NCBI RefSeq assembly: GCF_900109225.1
Contig: NZ_FNZK01000017.1
Location: 1-64,000 of the forward strand
From: Propionispira arboris
Lineage (GTDB): Bacteria; Bacillota; Negativicutes; Selenomonadales; Selenomonadaceae
Length of the DNA: 64,000 nucleotides
Direction: 5' to 3'
A program made the translations under genes and the position numbers. Of the stretch, positions 52,538 through 61,216 are shown in pieces (within the stretch, counting starts at the first letter, position 1; every line of letters begins with the position of its first letter). A model generated the notes under the pieces. That model was not told where the DNA came from. It saw only the letters and a list, made by a program, of their open reading frames with translations, and searched no databases.

Positions 52538-53872
52538 TGGCTCACTTGTCAAGACATAAAGATCAACTTTTCTTAATGAACCGATATGTTGATTGAATCC
52601 AAGCGAACTGTTGAATCCCTAATATATAATACATCAAGCCACATGATCCAACAGCATTGCCGGATAGTAGCATTCTGCCGTTTTTGATAATTGATTGCTG
52701 AATGACATCTGTCGAAATTGTAAGTGTGAATGTAATTAACTATGGCAGTTCTAGCTTCTTTAATATTGTTATATTGCGTCAGATAAGCTTCTTCATACTT
52801 GAAATTGCGAAACCATCATTCAATCATAATGTTATCAGCCCAACGACTTTTTCCATCCATATTCTGACGGATCTTGTTTTTCTGAATGAAATTGGTATAT
52901 TCCTAGCTGGTAAACTGGCAGCCTTGATCCGAATTAAGGATAAGAGGCATGGCACTATCAATGCTTTTTTCAAGGCATTGATAGCCATTCTGGTATCCAG
53001 CGTATCATTAACTTCCCATCCGACAATACAACGACTGTACCAGTCAATTACTGCCATCAGATACAAAAAACCATGTTTAATCGGGATATATGTTATTATC
53101 GATTGACCATGCCTGATTCGGACGATCAATGACAGCGTTACGGAGTAAATACGGGCAGGCTTTAGCTTTTTGCATTCGCTTTGATAAATTTATCTTTGGA
53201 TAAATTGAATCAATCCCCATCTCTACCATGTAGCGGCGAGCCTTTCTTCGGCCAACTAAATATCCCCGCAGCTTTAATTGTGCAGACATTTGTCTTGCAC
53301 CCCAGGCCGGATTATCTGTATGGAGTTTGTCTATGATAGCTTTACAAAAAAGTTCCTCTTTTGATACAGGCACGGTTTTATAATAAATACTGGTACGGTT
53401 GATATCCAGTAAATCGGCGCCCGTAGAAGCTGTCATTTCCTTAGTCGTCAAAAGGTTTTGGACTAAATTTACTCTCGTAGTCAGATCCGCAAACTTCTTC
53501 AGATTTTTTTTCAACCAATCAACCTGCATGGTTAACTGGGCAACCTTTTTTGCATATTCCGCTTTTTCCTTGCGTTCTATGGAAAGTTTTTCTTTCATAT
53601 TATCTTCTCGTTTGTCGTCAAATACGATAGAAGCATTATCGAGAAATTCTTTCTTCCAGTTACGAAGCAAGTTAGGTTGGATACTATTTTCAGAAGCTAA
53701 AGAATTTAGATCTTTTTCACCGTTCAGGAGCTCAATTACAAGATCTGATTTGAATTTGGCACTAAAATTTCTTCTTTGTCGGGACATGATAATGAACCCT
53801 CTTTCTATGTTGATTAAAGTATATCAGATTCATTAAAAACTGTCCTTAAAAGTGTCTTGATTTATAGCACCA
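52538..53872 (-). mobile_element. Degenerate IS3-family insertion sequence
   Basis: Imperfect inverted ends begin TGGCTCACTTGTCAAGACA on the left and TGGTGCTATAAATCAAGACA inward from the right, and both run on to AATGAA-C/TC. The size, about 1.33 kb, and the minus-strand transposase remnant fit IS3. I could not identify a clear target-site duplication. Confidence 0.75.
52590..53787 (-). pseudogene. IS3-family transposase, two frameshifts and two stops
   Basis: The frame from 53787 encodes the helix-turn-helix and leucine-zipper part (SRQRRNFSAKFKSDLVIELL; SLASENSIQPNLLRNWKKEF) and the start of the DDE domain (NQAWSIDN). One extra base near 53095 shifts the frame to KHGFLYLMAVIDWYSRC; a second shift near 52970 restores LILNSDQGCQFTS, followed by a TAG, then RWADNIMIE and a TGA, then WFRNFKYEEAYLTQYNNI. 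All three acidic catalytic blocks can be read, but the gene is broken at four places. Confidence 0.88.
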
Positions 53873-55820: not shown

Positions 55821-56828
55821 TCATAAAAGCAAGATCTTTTTATAAACTTCAATATAATCTTTCACCATTCGTTTTTGGGAAAAACGTTCCTCTACCGTTT
55901 TGCGGCAAGCCAAGCGGTCAATTTTTTTAATGTCTTGCAGCCGTTCGATCATTTCAGCCGCATTCGTCACTAAAAATCCATCAACGCCGTCCGTAATGAT
56001 TTCCGGCATAGAACCCTTCTTGAAAGCAATTACTGGTGTGCCACAAGCCATTGCTTCGACTATAGTCAGTCCAAACGGCTCATTGAAGCCAATTGGATGC
56101 AGAAGAGCCAATGCATGTCCCAGTACGCGATCACGGGCATCTGGCCCCACCGAGCCAATATACGTAATATCATGATTCAGATATGGCTTTACACATTCAT
56201 CATAGTAGGCCTGATCCTGAATAATCCCCGCGAGCACCAGCTTCATTTTAGCAGAACGAGCCACTTCAATGGCTTCTTTCGTTCCTTTATCAGGATGAAT
56301 TCTACCAAAATACACTAAATAATCCCCCGGGTTTTCACGCATCGTAAACCGTTCGATATCTATACCATGATAAACCGTCCCGATGTAGTCAAGCTGATTA
56401 CTGCGATCCGCATCACTAATCGATACATACTGTGTTCTTTTGTTATATTTTTTATAAACTGGTAGAATTTTTTCTGAGGAAAACCCATGAATTGTTGTCA
56501 CCATGGGTGTTTTGATTAAAGCACTATATGTCAACGGCAAAAAATCATAATGATTGTGAATCAGATCAAATTCATTCGCATGCTCCATCACTTCTGATAT
56601 ATGCATCGATTCCCAAACTTTAACATCGATGCTTCGATCTTCTTCATATGGACTCGGACAAACACCTACAAGTTTAGCCGCTGTTTGTGAATCACCCGTG
56701 GCAAAAAGCGTAACATCCAGTCCTTCTTTAACCAGACCTTCTGTCACCAAAGAAACGATTCTCTCCCATGGACCATAATGACGCGGTGGCGTTCGCCACG
56801 CGATTGGTGCCAGCATTGCAATTTTCAA
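55821..56828 (-). CDS. GT4-family glycosyltransferase
   Basis: At 335 residues it has a GT-B fold: HYGPWERIVSLVTEGLVKEG with the N-terminal donor-acceptor loop, YFGRIHPDKGTKEAIEVA (about residue 185) and the family GT4 motif NEPFGLTIVEAMACGTPVIA (about residue 258), containing the EX7E-type glutamates. It transfers a sugar from a nucleotide donor. It is last in the GH130-GT4-(alpha/alpha)6-GT4 operon. Confidence 0.85.
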   Translation of the reverse strand: MKIAMLAPIAWRTPPRHYGPWERIVSLVTEGLVKEGLDVTLFATGDSQTAAKLVGVCPSPYEEDRSIDVKVWESMHISEVMEHANEFDLIHNHYDFLPLTYSALIKTPMVTTIHGFSSEKILPVYKKYNKRTQYVSISDADRSNQLDYIGTVYHGIDIERFTMRENPGDYLVYFGRIHPDKGTKEAIEVARSAKMKLVLAGIIQDQAYYDECVKPYLNHDITYIGSVGPDARDRVLGHALALLHPIGFNEPFGLTIVEAMACGTPVIAFKKGSMPEIITDGVDGFLVTNAAEMIERLQDIKKIDRLACRKTVEERFSQKRMVKDYIEVYKKILLL

Positions 56829-56869: not shown

Positions 56870-57949
56870 TTACCGTTCAAAACAACTTTGATTCGTCATA
56901 AAAGTGGGTGTCGTAAGATTGTGTTTTGACAAAGCCAATTTTGCCATAGTGTACCCAACGATACTTTCCGCACCTTGATTTCGATTGACTCCCGTTGGGG
57001 TAATGCCATCAAAACAGCCTCCGGTTTCCGGATCGATCAAACTCTGTCCCAACGAATTTTCACCTAAATACCAGGCAAAACTTTTTTGGGCAAATTCAAG
57101 CATATCCGGCTGTTCTGTAATTTCAAAGGCAACCAAATGTGCCAATGTGGACATTGAAGCTTCAACTGGCTGCTGATCATACAAAGCTGGTTCTTTGTCT
57201 TTTTTATACCAGCCATCACAGCCAACAGGACGGAAAAATCCATCACGGAACGTAACCGTATCAACAAAAGCCAAACTTTTACGGGCAATATCAAGAAAGC
57301 GCTGTTCCTTCGTCGCACGATATGCAATAAACATAGCCCATGGCAAAACTGTATTATCATAGGTCAATTCATCTTCAAACCACTGCCATTCGCTCGTTTT
57401 CGTACATTTGTCAAAAGAATCTGCTAACTGCGTAGCAATTTCGCAAATTCTTAAATGTGCCGCCTCCGTCTTAAGAAAACCTAAGCCAATCAATACATAA
57501 GCCTGACTTCTGATGGATTTGATAGCAAATAATTTTGTATCCAAAGCAGCAGCAACAGCTCTGGCGCAAACATCTTGCACCCCTTTTGGCATAGCCGTTG
57601 ATTCCATTGTATATCCTAGTGCCCAAAGGCAACGACCAAAACAATCTTCAGACCCCTCCGCTTCGATAAACTTACGATCGTATGTCATAAAGTTACGAAA
57701 GCGTCCCGTTTCATTTTGTGAATACAATACAAATGCCAAATAACGATAAACTAAAGCCAAATAGCTCTTTTTCTGTTCTTTTTCATACAGCATGACTGCC
57801 ATAATGAGCGCTCGGGCATTATCATCTGTCGTATAACCTTTGGATAGATCTGGCACACCAAACTTCGCATGCTGAAACATCCCCGTATCATCTGTCATGC
57901 GAAATATATGTGTTTTATCAAGCTGGCTTTCAAGGGCAAGTGTGTTCAT
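56870..57949 (-). CDS. (alpha/alpha)6-barrel glycosidase-like protein
   Basis: At 359 residues, with repeated helical pairs and motifs such as GYTTDDNARALIMAV, WQWFEDELTYDNTVLPWA and a C-terminal NRNQGAESIVGYTMAKLAL, it looks like the (alpha/alpha)6 toroids of mannosidase or glycoside phosphorylase-type enzymes. There is no signal peptide. Its ATG overlaps the preceding GT4 stop by four bases. Proteins of this type recur beside GT4 and GH130 genes; the precise activity is unknown to me. Confidence 0.65.
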   Translation of the reverse strand: MNTLALESQLDKTHIFRMTDDTGMFQHAKFGVPDLSKGYTTDDNARALIMAVMLYEKEQKKSYLALVYRYLAFVLYSQNETGRFRNFMTYDRKFIEAEGSEDCFGRCLWALGYTMESTAMPKGVQDVCARAVAAALDTKLFAIKSIRSQAYVLIGLGFLKTEAAHLRICEIATQLADSFDKCTKTSEWQWFEDELTYDNTVLPWAMFIAYRATKEQRFLDIARKSLAFVDTVTFRDGFFRPVGCDGWYKKDKEPALYDQQPVEASMSTLAHLVAFEITEQPDMLEFAQKSFAWYLGENSLGQSLIDPETGGCFDGITPTGVNRNQGAESIVGYTMAKLALSKHNLTTPTFMTNQSCFER

Positions 57950-59205
57950 GCTTTCATCCCCTTCACTTGACTGGTTTTATTAAACGAAAATGTCATTTTT
58001 TTTTCAAGTGGAACGAGTGGTATCTGGGTATCACTTGTCAAAGAATTCCTATTTTCATCAATAGTCTTTAGACATAATTCCACATATTGACTCGCTACAT
58101 TTTCCCAGGTCATCGTCCGACCTACAGCCATGGTCCTGATTTCCATGTCCGCTTTTCGCTCAGGATTACCAAGAACCGTTCGTATACAATCTGCGAGTGA
58201 ATCTTCATCTCTAAATCGAGCTAAGAGGCCGCGGCCTTCCCCCAGCATCTCTTGTGCATAGCGATAAGGTGTCGATATAATAACCCGTCCGTAACCCATG
58301 GCATAGGCCAATGTGCCACTGACAGCCTGTTCAGCTGACAAATACGGTGTCAAATACATATCGGATAATTGTAAATAGGTGATGACCTCTTCTTTTGTCA
58401 AATATTTATCAACAAATTGGACATGATCTCTCACGCCTAATGTTTCTGCCAAATCCATAAGGCTCTGCCGATAGGCTTCACCCATTTTTTCTTTAACGGT
58501 AGGATGTGTCTTCCCCAAAATCAAATAAATAACATCATCATATTGTTTTACTACTTTTGCCAAGGCTTGAATTCCGTATTCTAACCCCTTTGCCGGACTG
58601 ATCAAACCAAAGCTGCTAATAATTTGTTTATTTTTGAGCGCCGGATAATACGACTTCAGTTGTTCACGTGATACCATTTTCATACTCGGTACACCATGTG
58701 GTATAAACATGATTTTACGTCCGGCAATATCATAGCTGCCCTTTAGCACCGGAATTGAACTTTCTGCCATCGTCACGACTTTTGTACTCAGTTTGCCAAG
58801 TTCACGTAAAACAGATCTCTGTTTTGACGTCGGGCGAAGTAACACTGTATGCGTCGTAACGATAAAAGGGATTTGCAATTCTTTCGCAAAATCAATAACA
58901 TATTCACCTGCGGTTCCGCCAAAAATACCATATTCATGTTCAATAATGACCAAATCGACATGTGTATTGGCCCAAGCAGCAGCCTCCTTATAACTGGAAC
59001 GATCTTCCTGGTTCACATGAAATGCAACACGTGAATCCGTGTATTCTTCATTTTTTGTCATTGCCATAATGCAGGTTTGCACGGAAGAAGTTTCTGTATT
59101 TTCATCAATTGCATTTACCAAATCTTCCGTAAATGTAGCCAATCCACATTCTTTCGGTGGATACGTACTTAAAAAAGCAATGCGCTTAGCGATATTTGTC
59201 TTCAT
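57946..59205 (-). CDS. GT4-family glycosyltransferase
   Basis: At 419 residues it is a GT-B enzyme: FLSTYPPKECGLATFTEDLV at the N-terminus, SSFGLISPAKGLEYGIQAL (about residue 212) and a C-terminal SAEQAVSGTLAYAMGYGRVI (about residue 317). The start resembles the sugar-transferase group found next to GH130 genes. It is coupled to the next gene by a four-base overlap. Confidence 0.82.
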   Translation of the reverse strand: MKTNIAKRIAFLSTYPPKECGLATFTEDLVNAIDENTETSSVQTCIMAMTKNEEYTDSRVAFHVNQEDRSSYKEAAAWANTHVDLVIIEHEYGIFGGTAGEYVIDFAKELQIPFIVTTHTVLLRPTSKQRSVLRELGKLSTKVVTMAESSIPVLKGSYDIAGRKIMFIPHGVPSMKMVSREQLKSYYPALKNKQIISSFGLISPAKGLEYGIQALAKVVKQYDDVIYLILGKTHPTVKEKMGEAYRQSLMDLAETLGVRDHVQFVDKYLTKEEVITYLQLSDMYLTPYLSAEQAVSGTLAYAMGYGRVIISTPYRYAQEMLGEGRGLLARFRDEDSLADCIRTVLGNPERKADMEIRTMAVGRTMTWENVASQYVELCLKTIDENRNSLTSDTQIPLVPLEKKMTFSFNKTSQVKGMKA

Positions 59206-59260: not shown

Positions 59261-60268
59261 TTAATAAAAATCACCATGTGACGGTTCCGGACAGCGGCAG
59301 ATATATTCTAACAACTCGCCGATTGTACTTGTAGCCAATGCAATACAAGTATCGGCACCGCCATAATAGATTCTGATAACCCCTGTTTTTTCATCCAACA
59401 CCCAGCCACAAGAAAATACTACATTTGCAACATCGCCTTGTGTTTCATAAGGCATTTCCGGTCCAAAAATCCACTCATCGCTGCGATGCAATACTTTTAA
59501 TGGGTTTTCTAAATCAAGCAAAGCAAGTCCGAGTCGATACAAACAACCCGACCCAGTTTGTCGTACGCCATGATACAAAAGCAGCCACCCCTGAGGGGTT
59601 TCTAAAGGTGGTGCTGATAGCCCAATTTTTCCACTGTCCCACCAACCGCCAGAGCGTGCATGCATCAAAACCTGCTGGTCGCTCCAATGGGAAAGATCAT
59701 CCGAATAAGAAAGCCAGATATGAGCACCTGCTACATAGCTTGCCACAATTGGTCGATGAATCAAGACCCATTTATCATTAATGCGCCGCGGGAAAAGTGC
59801 GGCATCTTTATCTTCCCCGCTCGTAATCGCTCCCAGCCGAGAAAATGTTTTAAAATCTTCGGTTAATGCCAAAGACACCAGCGGACCGCTTTGTGAAAAA
59901 GCTGTATAGGTAATCGCCCATTTTCCTAAGGACTCCAAACGAGAAATACGCGGATCTTCAATGCCCCATAGTTCTTCCGGATGATCATAAATATCGGGTT
60001 CCATAGTCGGTATACTATCGATTTGCCAATGGTCGATTCCATTGTCACTAATCGCCGTTGTTAAATGTGAAAATCCTCGACGATCTTCCACCCGTACCAA
60101 CAAAAGTACTTTACCTTCAAATATAGTTGCCCCTGGATTAAATACAGAATGCACTGGATAAGTCCAATTATCTGCTGTTAAAATCGGATTATTCGCATGC
60201 CTGCGAAAAAGTTCTTTAAAAGTATTATCATCATTTTTTAATTTCGTTGTAAATTTCCCTTTTCTCAT
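59261..60268 (-). CDS. GH130-family beta-mannoside phosphorylase
   Basis: About 335 residues, a five-bladed propeller: NPGATIFEGKVLLLVRVEDR (about residue 46), GIEDPRISRLESLGKWAITY (about residue 106), KDAALFPRRI and YYGGADTCIALAT at the end. These blocks are conserved in GH130 enzymes, which cleave or build beta-1,2- or beta-1,4-mannosides with phosphate. ATG 60268 has AAAGGAG eight bases upstream; the GTG nine bases earlier overlaps that site. It heads the glycan operon behind a CIRCE-controlled promoter. Confidence 0.85.
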   Translation of the reverse strand: MRKGKFTTKLKNDDNTFKELFRRHANNPILTADNWTYPVHSVFNPGATIFEGKVLLLVRVEDRRGFSHLTTAISDNGIDHWQIDSIPTMEPDIYDHPEELWGIEDPRISRLESLGKWAITYTAFSQSGPLVSLALTEDFKTFSRLGAITSGEDKDAALFPRRINDKWVLIHRPIVASYVAGAHIWLSYSDDLSHWSDQQVLMHARSGGWWDSGKIGLSAPPLETPQGWLLLYHGVRQTGSGCLYRLGLALLDLENPLKVLHRSDEWIFGPEMPYETQGDVANVVFSCGWVLDEKTGVIRIYYGGADTCIALATSTIGELLEYICRCPEPSHGDFY

Positions 60269-60321
60269 AAGAAGCACTCCTTTTTCTATTTCACTGTTAA
60301 CGGTGCTATCTATGTTCGAAT

Positions 60322-60400
60322 AAAAAAACCGCCCTGCAAGATATTGGATCGTATGTGTAAACGAGTCATGCGCACACTTAATCTAGTACCCCTAGGCGGT
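60322..60400 (-). ncRNA. Structured leader with attenuator-type terminator
   Basis: On the minus strand ACCGCC (60395-60400) can pair with GGCGGT (60328-60333), which is followed by seven T. Between them lie smaller pairings (CTAG/CTAG and GTGT/ACAC). The element lies in the leader of the GH130 operon, between the promoter and the first gene, so it could regulate read-through. I do not recognise a known riboswitch. Confidence 0.5.
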
Positions 60401-60417
60401 CAAACTACAATATGGCA

Positions 60418-60444
60418 TTAGCACTCACCGTCGTTGACTGCTAA
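60418..60444. promoter_or_regulatory. CIRCE operator (HrcA-binding site)
   Basis: TTAGCACTC-N9-GACTGCTAA matches the CIRCE consensus TTAGCACTC-N9-GAGTGCTAA at 17 of 18 defined bases with the exact spacer length. It begins 14 bases after the -10 of the GH130 operon promoter, the normal place for HrcA repression. Confidence 0.8.
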
Positions 60445-60457
60445 TAGTGTTGTCTTA

Positions 60458-60486
60458 AGTATACAAGAAAAAGTTGATTCTGTCAA
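60458..60486 (-). promoter_or_regulatory. Promoter of the GH130/GT4 operon
   Basis: TTGACA (60481-60486) and TATACT (60458-60463) are 17 bases apart on the minus strand. Confidence 0.75.
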
Positions 60487-60534
60487 TTTTATCACGTACA
60501 AAAGCGTCCCCTGTTATTTGTAGAAAGCGAAAAT

Positions 60535-60561
60535 GGGCTGTCTCAAAATTTGAGACAGCCC
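60535..60561 (-). terminator. Terminator of the amino acid ABC transporter operon
   Basis: GGGCTGTCTCAAA and TTTGAGACAGCCC form a perfect 13-base stem ten bases after the last permease gene; a short T run follows. Confidence 0.7.
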
Positions 60562-60571
60562 ACCTTTTCCG

Positions 60572-61216
60572 TCAATAACTTTTACAAATCATTTTATGCT
60601 GCACCCGCCGTGCATAAACCGAAATAGCATAATTCATAATAAAATAAGTTGCGGCAATCATGCCAAACAACGTAAAAACTTGTTCGGTCGTACCATAACG
60701 TCCCATAATAATCATCCCTTTGCCAGTTAGATCTTCAATCCCAACCGCCCAAACAAACGAAGTATCCTTGATGACCGTCGTACACTGGGAAACGAGCGGC
60801 GGAATTACATTTCGCAAAGCCTGCGGCAAAACAATATGCCGCAAAATAGACCACGTACTAAACCCTTGTGCCGTCGCTGCTTCCCACTGTCCCTTATGAA
60901 TTGATTTCAAACCACCACGGACAATTTCAGCAATAATCGCCGTTGTGAACACCGTCATGGCTGCTACACCAGCCTGAACCGGTGGCAAAGGCGTCATAAA
61001 ACGAAATGCCAAGATAAACAAAAGTAACGGGGTGTTTCGGATGATTTCAATATAAGTCGCCGCCATATAACCCGGCCATTTTCCTTGAAATCGTAAAACC
61101 CCAAGCAAAATACCAAAGACCAAACTGAGTACAATTGAAACCGACGCTATATAGATGGTCGTCAACAATCCCTGTCCTAAAAACAATAACACACCTGGTT
61201 GAAAAAGTTCACTCAT
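60572..61216 (-). CDS. Amino acid ABC transporter permease
   Basis: About 214 residues with five helices of the His/Glu/Gln/Arg-type permease family ([37 protein letters not shown], the EAA loop). I chose ATG 61216 because it overlaps the stop of the previous permease (ATGA); the frame opens at 61273. It forms a heteromer with the permease upstream. Confidence 0.85.

Follow-up and report, generated by a model that had tools for sequence, protein, structure and literature searches.

Introduction

HrcA is generally regarded as a chaperone-gene repressor and is kept active by GroE. Its operator, the controlling inverted repeat of chaperone expression (CIRCE), defines the class I heat-shock regulon, which comprises groESL and hrcA-grpE-dnaK-dnaJ. 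Here we analyzed a 64,000-nucleotide stretch of Propionispira arboris DNA (Bacillota, Negativicutes; contig NZ_FNZK01000017.1, positions 1 to 64,000, hereafter the window), in which a CIRCE lies at the promoter of an operon coding for a GH130 glycoside phosphorylase-like protein, two GT4-type glycosyltransferases and a protein of (alpha/alpha)6 type. The locus resembles the class I regulon in the operator sequence, in its spacing and in its position behind a sigma-A-type promoter, and the genome has an hrcA gene that is itself behind a CIRCE, but the target is a glycan operon and not a set of chaperone genes.

Leishmania mannogen, one of the two nearest parallels, may have a role in heat tolerance, for which we found no passage in the excerpts of PMC8950772 and PMC8781126 used here. 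Mannogen is an intracellular reserve beta-1,2-mannan that is recycled by enzymes with the GH130 fold and a similar mechanism (PMC8950772, in part), whereas those enzymes belong to a eukaryote, to family GT108 (mannosyltransferase/phosphorylases), and to a system lacking HrcA. Among bacteria, the beta-1,2-mannoside phosphorylase cluster of Thermoanaerobacter (Teth514_1785-1796) combines GH130, mannose-1-phosphate guanylyltransferase and GT4 genes as the clostridial relatives of our operon do, although it carries its own ABC transport and GH5 genes, and no heat control is proposed in the part of PMC4264767 considered. As to HrcA itself, groESL is described as the sole constant member of the HrcA/CIRCE regulon in the delta-proteobacteria, with hrcA-dnaK and rpoH joining it in some (PMC545781, excerpt), and deletion of hrcA in Thermoanaerobacter kivui did not significantly change growth at 72 °C (PMC12044746, excerpt). 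Our literature search found no paper linking HrcA or CIRCE to a GH130 operon, and neither HrcA nor CIRCE appears in the main text of a study of transcription-factor binding in Clostridium thermocellum (PMC8457756).

Results

The pattern TTAGCACTC-N9-GAGTGCTAA matches the window at a single place, with one of the 18 arm bases mismatched, while 100 shuffles of the sequence gave a mean of 0.00 matches. On the minus strand, a sigma-A-type promoter, TTGACA-17-TATACT, is followed after 13 nucleotides by the CIRCE, which keeps the exact 9-9-9 spacing; by eye, the corresponding distance from the -10 box is about 10-11 nucleotides at hrcA, groES and htpG of the same genome. The initial annotation had reported a 17-of-18 CIRCE with correct spacing just behind a perfect promoter. 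The operator stands as described and the promoter is strong, but "perfect" overstates a match of 11 bases out of 12. Judged by its sequence, the site is a real HrcA-type operator.

A genome-wide search, proposed in the initial annotation as a check, found four CIRCE places at up to three mismatches in the 4,261,607 bases of the genome: the window site and three perfect copies upstream of hrcA (L002), groES (L003) and htpG (L005), whose products were confirmed by Pfam as HrcA (7.3e-62), Cpn10 and HSP90. Since the reversed pattern also gave two forward matches at up to three mismatches, matches of that quality are unconvincing alone; the window site stands apart from them with its one mismatch and its location on a promoter. 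Beside this, the perfect CIRCE at htpG (L001/L005, G000:C23:131555) has counterparts at htpG-like genes of three other genomes (L122, L127, L134). The htpG gene of Bacillus subtilis is not known to be an HrcA target.

To score conservation, we assembled GH130 loci from three samples. Of 380 genomes of the class Negativicutes, 30 had GH130 matches, and 28 loci were kept after dropping L035 (35% identical) and L036 (a fragment). Named contigs held 80 GH130 loci, from which we dropped 56 not labelled Bacillota, L057 (no phylum given) and nine duplicate contigs under other handles (L039, L041-L045, L050, L063, L069), leaving 14. In the order of Pseudobacteroides, 32 of 58 genomes had matches, nine loci of which were orthologous (identity 69% or more) and eight new; L136 (a second copy of L055), L137 (a fragment) and all other matches, whose identity did not exceed 43%, were dropped. 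After removal of duplicates the scored set had 50 Bacillota rows with 47 distinct proteins, L055, L135 and L144 sharing one protein and L007 and L008 another. We did not score as CIRCE the similar inverted repeats of L020, L052 and Pelosinus, in which the spacing differs or the arms have decayed.

A CIRCE with at most two mismatches, no more than 350 nucleotides upstream of GH130, was present in 20 of the 50 rows, from both Negativicutes and Clostridia (9/28 in the class sample, 6/14 on the other named contigs, 5/8 in the Pseudobacteroides order). Fourteen of these sites are perfect, five have one mismatch and one has two, while four was the lowest number of mismatches reached by 2000 base shuffles, 40 for each row. 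No CIRCE at up to three mismatches was found in the locus DNA of the 56 non-Bacillota loci or of the unlabelled L057. In six of the eight whole genomes behind named loci, one of the three to five CIRCEs that each holds at up to one mismatch sits at the GH130 operon, and the reversed control gave 0 in all eight. On the GH130 tree the window protein does not group with its own family but with L016 and L017 (support 100/99), which come from two other families and both have a CIRCE; operon and operator may therefore have been transferred together from one family to another. A near-identical operon is present in Propionispira raffinosivorans DSM 20765 (L039), with 99.7-100% identity in GH130 and 98.8-99.8% in the other genes. 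We also observed at L020, upstream of GH130, and at L224 an inverted repeat, TTAGTGCT-N8-AGTACTAA, at the CIRCE position with shorter spacing, which is possibly a diverged HrcA site.

Several orthologous operons are joined to chaperone genes. Thermoclostridium caenicola (L053, L140) has the order CIRCE-GH130-manC-GT4-(alpha/alpha)6-groES-groEL, and a separate groESL with its own CIRCE lies elsewhere in the genome, so that the groESL of the operon is a second one. In two Negativicutes genomes (G213, G308), two perfect CIRCEs separate groESL from a divergently oriented GH130-manC-GT4-(alpha/alpha)6-phosphomannomutase operon. In L047, one of the 20 rows, the promoter assigned by eye suggests that the CIRCE belongs to the divergent manC-GT4-(alpha/alpha)6 genes.

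An apparent C. thermocellum genome (G405) has a perfect CIRCE followed by GH130-manC-GT4-(alpha/alpha)6-manA, the last coding for a type I mannose-6-phosphate isomerase, and this order fits Cthe_3112 to Cthe_3116. In the 2013 array study PMC3848806 (seen for Table 2 and related text), where negative values mean higher expression in treated cells, Cthe_3112 and Cthe_3116 rank in the top ten for heat induction. After 10, 30, 60 and 120 min, the values were -0.71, -2.61, -2.52 and -1.71 for Cthe_3112, listed as "Glycosidase related protein", and -0.13, -2.78, -2.84 and -2.11 for Cthe_3116, the mannose-6-phosphate isomerase, which the text of that paper names under central carbon metabolism. The word CIRCE is absent from its main text. 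A literature search for the locus tags found Cthe_3112 and Cthe_3116 in this paper alone and Cthe_3113 to Cthe_3115 nowhere. The initial annotation had named absence of CIRCE from orthologous operons and absence of heat induction as the observations that would speak against it; what we found is CIRCE at part of the orthologous operons, and the first and fifth genes of the apparent C. thermocellum operon are induced by heat. Heat control of the operon is thus very likely, as far as sequence and these published data allow it to be predicted.

The four genes of the window operon lie on the minus strand in the order GH130, GT4, (alpha/alpha)6, GT4, with gaps of 55, -4 and 41 nucleotides (Table 1), and the composition given in the initial annotation agrees with Pfam and with an AlphaFold2 model. 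The listed GTG start of GH130 (60277) falls within the ribosome-binding site, so ATG 60268, chosen by eye, is the likely start. GH130 scored 188.7 bits against PF04041 (cut-off 26), and sequence comparison makes it a distant relative of the solved beta-1,2 enzymes. Its motif WGIEDPRI corresponds to WGVEDPRI in the beta-1,2-mannobiose phosphorylase 7fip and to RGLEDPRI in 9fj8, whereas the beta-1,4 enzymes 1vkd, 5ayd and 4udg carry YDPRV; we infer that E-D-P-R-I versus Y-D-P-R-V may tell the linkage specificity of GH130 proteins. GT4b matches PDB 7fg9/8x3q at E about 5e-79. GT4a has no PDB match at E <= 1e-5 and is weakly similar to models of exopolysaccharide and lipopolysaccharide glycosyltransferases. 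For the (alpha/alpha)6 protein Pfam gave just a sub-threshold C5-epim_C match, and profile comparison pointed to YPO2471 and GH76. Its AlphaFold2 model (pLDDT 85.1) is an all-alpha fold of (alpha/alpha)6 type, for which Foldseek listed YPO2471 and cellobiose 2-epimerases as nearest and GH76 mannanases lower, all of them distant.

Clostridial operons add a manC-type nucleotidyltransferase gene (mannose-1-phosphate guanylyltransferase-like), and several also a phosphomannomutase or mannose-6-phosphate isomerase gene; manC is present in some Negativicutes operons as well. These additions support a mannose glycan. None of the four window genes codes for a flippase, polymerase, exporter or lipid-carrier function, and strongly hydrophobic, membrane-like segments are absent from all four proteins, which favours a cytoplasmic product. 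The operon would then act on a mannosyl glycan of the cytoplasm, with GDP-mannose as its precursor and phosphorolysis as its route of turnover. Of the glycan proposed in the initial annotation, the mannose type is supported by the genes for GDP-mannose supply in several orthologous operons; its role as a compatible solute or envelope reserve is unsupported.

The stretch from CIRCE to GH130 contains a structured leader RNA, which the initial annotation does not mention. A covariance model (R1) built from 12 Negativicutes leader sequences gave 25 matches below E 1e-6 (L186-L206, L216-L219) in 21 of the 380 Negativicutes genomes; weaker matches (E 0.007 to 0.1) were left out. Thirteen of the 25 are at GH130 and 12 elsewhere: six before a small ADP-ribosyltransferase-like gene, three before a gene for a secreted-looking protein, one before a GlsB-type gene and two before others. 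The small gene gave a sub-threshold match of ADP-ribosyltransferase type and is also found inside the Pelosinus GH130 operon. In L226 and L227 we observed, by eye, the leader followed by an apparent GH130 remnant (the start and, in L227, also the end) and then the small gene, as if the operon decayed while the leader survived.

The leader consists of two hairpins inside an outer helix. Among the 25 aligned leaders, 95.8% of cells pair and six of 20 pairs changed on both sides. No shuffle out of 500 gave as high a figure for one or the other, and partners shifted by 1-3 columns paired in 35-44%. Relatedness among the sequences raises such covariation counts, and the alignment itself had been fitted to the model. 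The family has two forms, which differ at one base pair. In 21 leaders the Shine-Dalgarno sequence is paired, which hides the start site, and in four the leader forms a terminator. Opposite the middle of the Shine-Dalgarno sequence, 19 of the 21 start-site-hiding leaders have a purine-purine mismatch and the other two a missing base, whereas all four terminator-form leaders have a standard pair at this position.

The window leader, by eye, has the terminator form and not the form pairing with the Shine-Dalgarno sequence, and it is a divergent member of the family. R1 missed it in the search of 380 genomes and gave it E 0.064 in another scan. A refined model (R2), built without the window leader, found it as the sole match in its genome at E <= 0.01 (E 0.007), ranked it best in a smaller set (E 0.00039), and in 398 genomes sampled over the phylum returned just it and a second match (G499, E 2.3e-4). 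Scans of clostridial loci did not detect the leader at E <= 1. Two Bacillota loci without a class label, L040 and L051, gave weak matches (E 0.15 to 0.58), and the one in L051 lies away from the leader position. The window leader together with CIRCE folds at -36.4 kcal/mol (z -1.69), and its folding energy alone is unexceptional because 13 of 200 shuffles fold equally well or better. Rfam gave 11 matches to positions 60200-60620 at E <= 10, none at gathering score, the best (E 0.078) being to a microRNA family; at E <= 1 the scan of 16 GH130 orthologue loci gave just tRNA, T-box and group II intron matches. Our literature search, which took in excerpts of the motif-discovery papers PMC8632094 and PMC6429828, found no description of the leader.

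The start-site-hiding form resembles RNA thermometers such as ROSE and fourU in covering the Shine-Dalgarno sequence, mostly with a purine-purine mismatch, and the heat-shock context would fit. The leader differs from them in having no Rfam match, two hairpins within an outer helix, a terminator form and a mostly flat computed melting: between 25 and 50 °C, of the 20 start-site leaders scored (L219, one more, is outside these 20), 17 changed in ViennaRNA accessibility by no more than 0.1, and L188, L193 and L197 rose from 0.03-0.05 to 0.22-0.35. Because melting is flat in most leaders, we do not claim an RNA thermometer. As a separate observation, in L023 and L026 the CIRCE is followed by a different hairpin, predicted to pair with AGGAGG ahead of the GH130 start, possibly another control at the level of translation.

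Table 1 Features of the glycan operon and its control region in the window.
Feature	Position	Strand	Details
-35 box TTGACA	60481..60486	-	11/12 promoter bases together with the -10 box; 17-nucleotide spacer
-10 box TATACT	60458..60463	-	11/12 promoter bases together with the -35 box
CIRCE operator (candidate HrcA site)	60418..60444	.	17/18 arm bases, 9-nucleotide spacer
Structured leader RNA, terminator form (ACCGCC ... GGCGGTTTTTTT)	60317..60405	-	divergent member of the Negativicutes leader family; model R2
GH130 glycoside phosphorylase-like protein	59261..60268	-	335 residues from ATG 60268; Pfam PF04041, 1.6e-55
GT4a, GT4-type glycosyltransferase	57946..59205	-	419 residues; Pfam Glycos_transf_1, 1.2e-16
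(alpha/alpha)6-type protein	56870..57949	-	359 residues; AlphaFold2 model and Foldseek; 4-nucleotide overlap with GT4a
GT4b, GT4-type glycosyltransferase	55821..56828	-	335 residues; Pfam Glycos_transf_1, 1.3e-23
Strong near-symmetric terminator-like hairpin	60534..60562	.	13 pairs, listed on the + strand

The terminator-like hairpin lies between the upstream amino-acid ABC transporter genes and the GH130 operon and, by eye, may serve both strands. Downstream of the operon is an open reading frame resembling an IS3-type transposase (53077-53787, minus strand).

Discussion

We consider it probable that the window holds an HrcA-repressed, class I heat-shock operon whose products act on a cytoplasmic mannosyl glycan, with the leader RNA as a second control. 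At normal temperature, HrcA maintained by GroE would sit on the CIRCE behind the promoter and block transcription, and under heat or another protein-folding stress HrcA would be lost and the operon transcribed along with groESL, hrcA-dnaK and htpG; the heat response here is argued by analogy with another species. The GT4 enzymes would build the glycan from GDP-mannose, most likely with beta-1,2 links, GH130 would release mannose-1-phosphate from it or extend it, and the (alpha/alpha)6 protein may trim or epimerise it, the glycan perhaps serving as a protectant or reserve. In Clostridia the same operator would also drive the supply of GDP-mannose. In Propionispira the leader behind the CIRCE would add control through transcription termination, where relatives would use the form that hides the start site.

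Several observations weigh against this reading. Thirty of the 50 orthologue rows lack a CIRCE, so it is dispensable for persistence of the operon, and no CIRCE is at the operon in Pelosinus fermentans JBW45 or Sporomusa malonica, the other two of the eight whole genomes. On the GH130 tree the CIRCE label takes eight changes, at least four of them forced by well-supported branches, which implies repeated losses, gains or transfers. In the window's own family, all seven other genomes with the gene (121 searched) are without CIRCE; we rejected this as a refutation, since the class-wide search and the tree place those GH130 genes on other branches. GH130 itself falls below the NCBIfam equivalog cut-offs for characterised mannoside phosphorylases (221 of 550 and 210.2 of 450 bits). 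The heat data come from one species and one study, concern apparent orthologues in a genome whose identity as C. thermocellum is itself apparent, and involve no hrcA mutant; they are not proof of HrcA control, and the part of PMC3848806 considered reports groES and dnaK as induced but outside the heat top ten. Finally, 11 of the 13 GH130 loci with an R1 leader have no CIRCE at up to two mismatches, and just L016 and L021 have both.

This last count, like the one mismatch in the window site, is what might be expected if the CIRCE-like sequence were a chance or decayed site outside HrcA control and the leader the sole regulator. Against that stand the expectation of 0 matches by chance, the exact spacing at a promoter, the 14 perfect sites at orthologues, the linkage to groESL and the induction by heat of the apparent orthologues in C. 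thermocellum, and we regard such an explanation as highly improbable. A functional CIRCE could instead control an operon for an envelope or surface glycan, such as a teichuronic-type polymer, an S-layer glycan or a lipid-linked glycan, that reinforces the envelope under stress. The weak resemblance of GT4a to exopolysaccharide and lipopolysaccharide enzymes leans that way, and two GT4 enzymes with the clostridial GDP-mannose genes would suit any mannosylated product, but a phosphorylase indicates intracellular turnover and the four genes lack the export, lipid-carrier and membrane features set out above; we think an envelope role unlikely. The operon might also serve mainly for salvage, GH130 phosphorolysis supplying mannose-1-phosphate for GDP-mannose while heat control merely tracks general energy demand. 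Salvage was proposed by the authors of the Thermoanaerobacter work for a cluster with two GH130 phosphorylases, a mannose-1-phosphate guanylyltransferase and GT4 (PMC4264767, in part). That cluster, however, has an ABC importer and the four-gene window operon none, and de novo mannose genes (manA or phosphomannomutase) in the operons of apparent C. thermocellum, Pseudobacteroides, Clostridium sp. LS, G213 and G308 fit synthesis, which leaves salvage improbable as the main function.

Beyond the HrcA-repressed operon acting on a cytoplasmic mannosyl glycan, a bolder proposal can be put forward tentatively, and with some doubt: that anaerobic Firmicutes may make a polysaccharide specifically for heat shock, namely a beta-mannan of the cytoplasm with both its synthesis and its phosphorolytic turnover in the HrcA regulon and at times fused to groESL, and that in Negativicutes the first gene may be gated by an undescribed leader RNA, thermosensing or ligand-binding, switched between start-site hiding and termination via one base pair. 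The leader would be a new structured RNA, a candidate thermosensor or riboswitch, and the CIRCE-controlled operon offers an explanation for the appearance of Cthe_3112 and Cthe_3116 in published heat-shock data. For Propionispira and a good share of related anaerobes, a heat-shock switch on apparent mannose-polymer genes suggests that a protective or reserve sugar is part of the heat response. If this is true, a carbohydrate pathway under the HrcA operator, linked physically to groESL in several cases, would bring sugar-polymer chemistry into the heat-shock response of two Firmicutes classes and open a direct way to study how such polymers affect protein stability.
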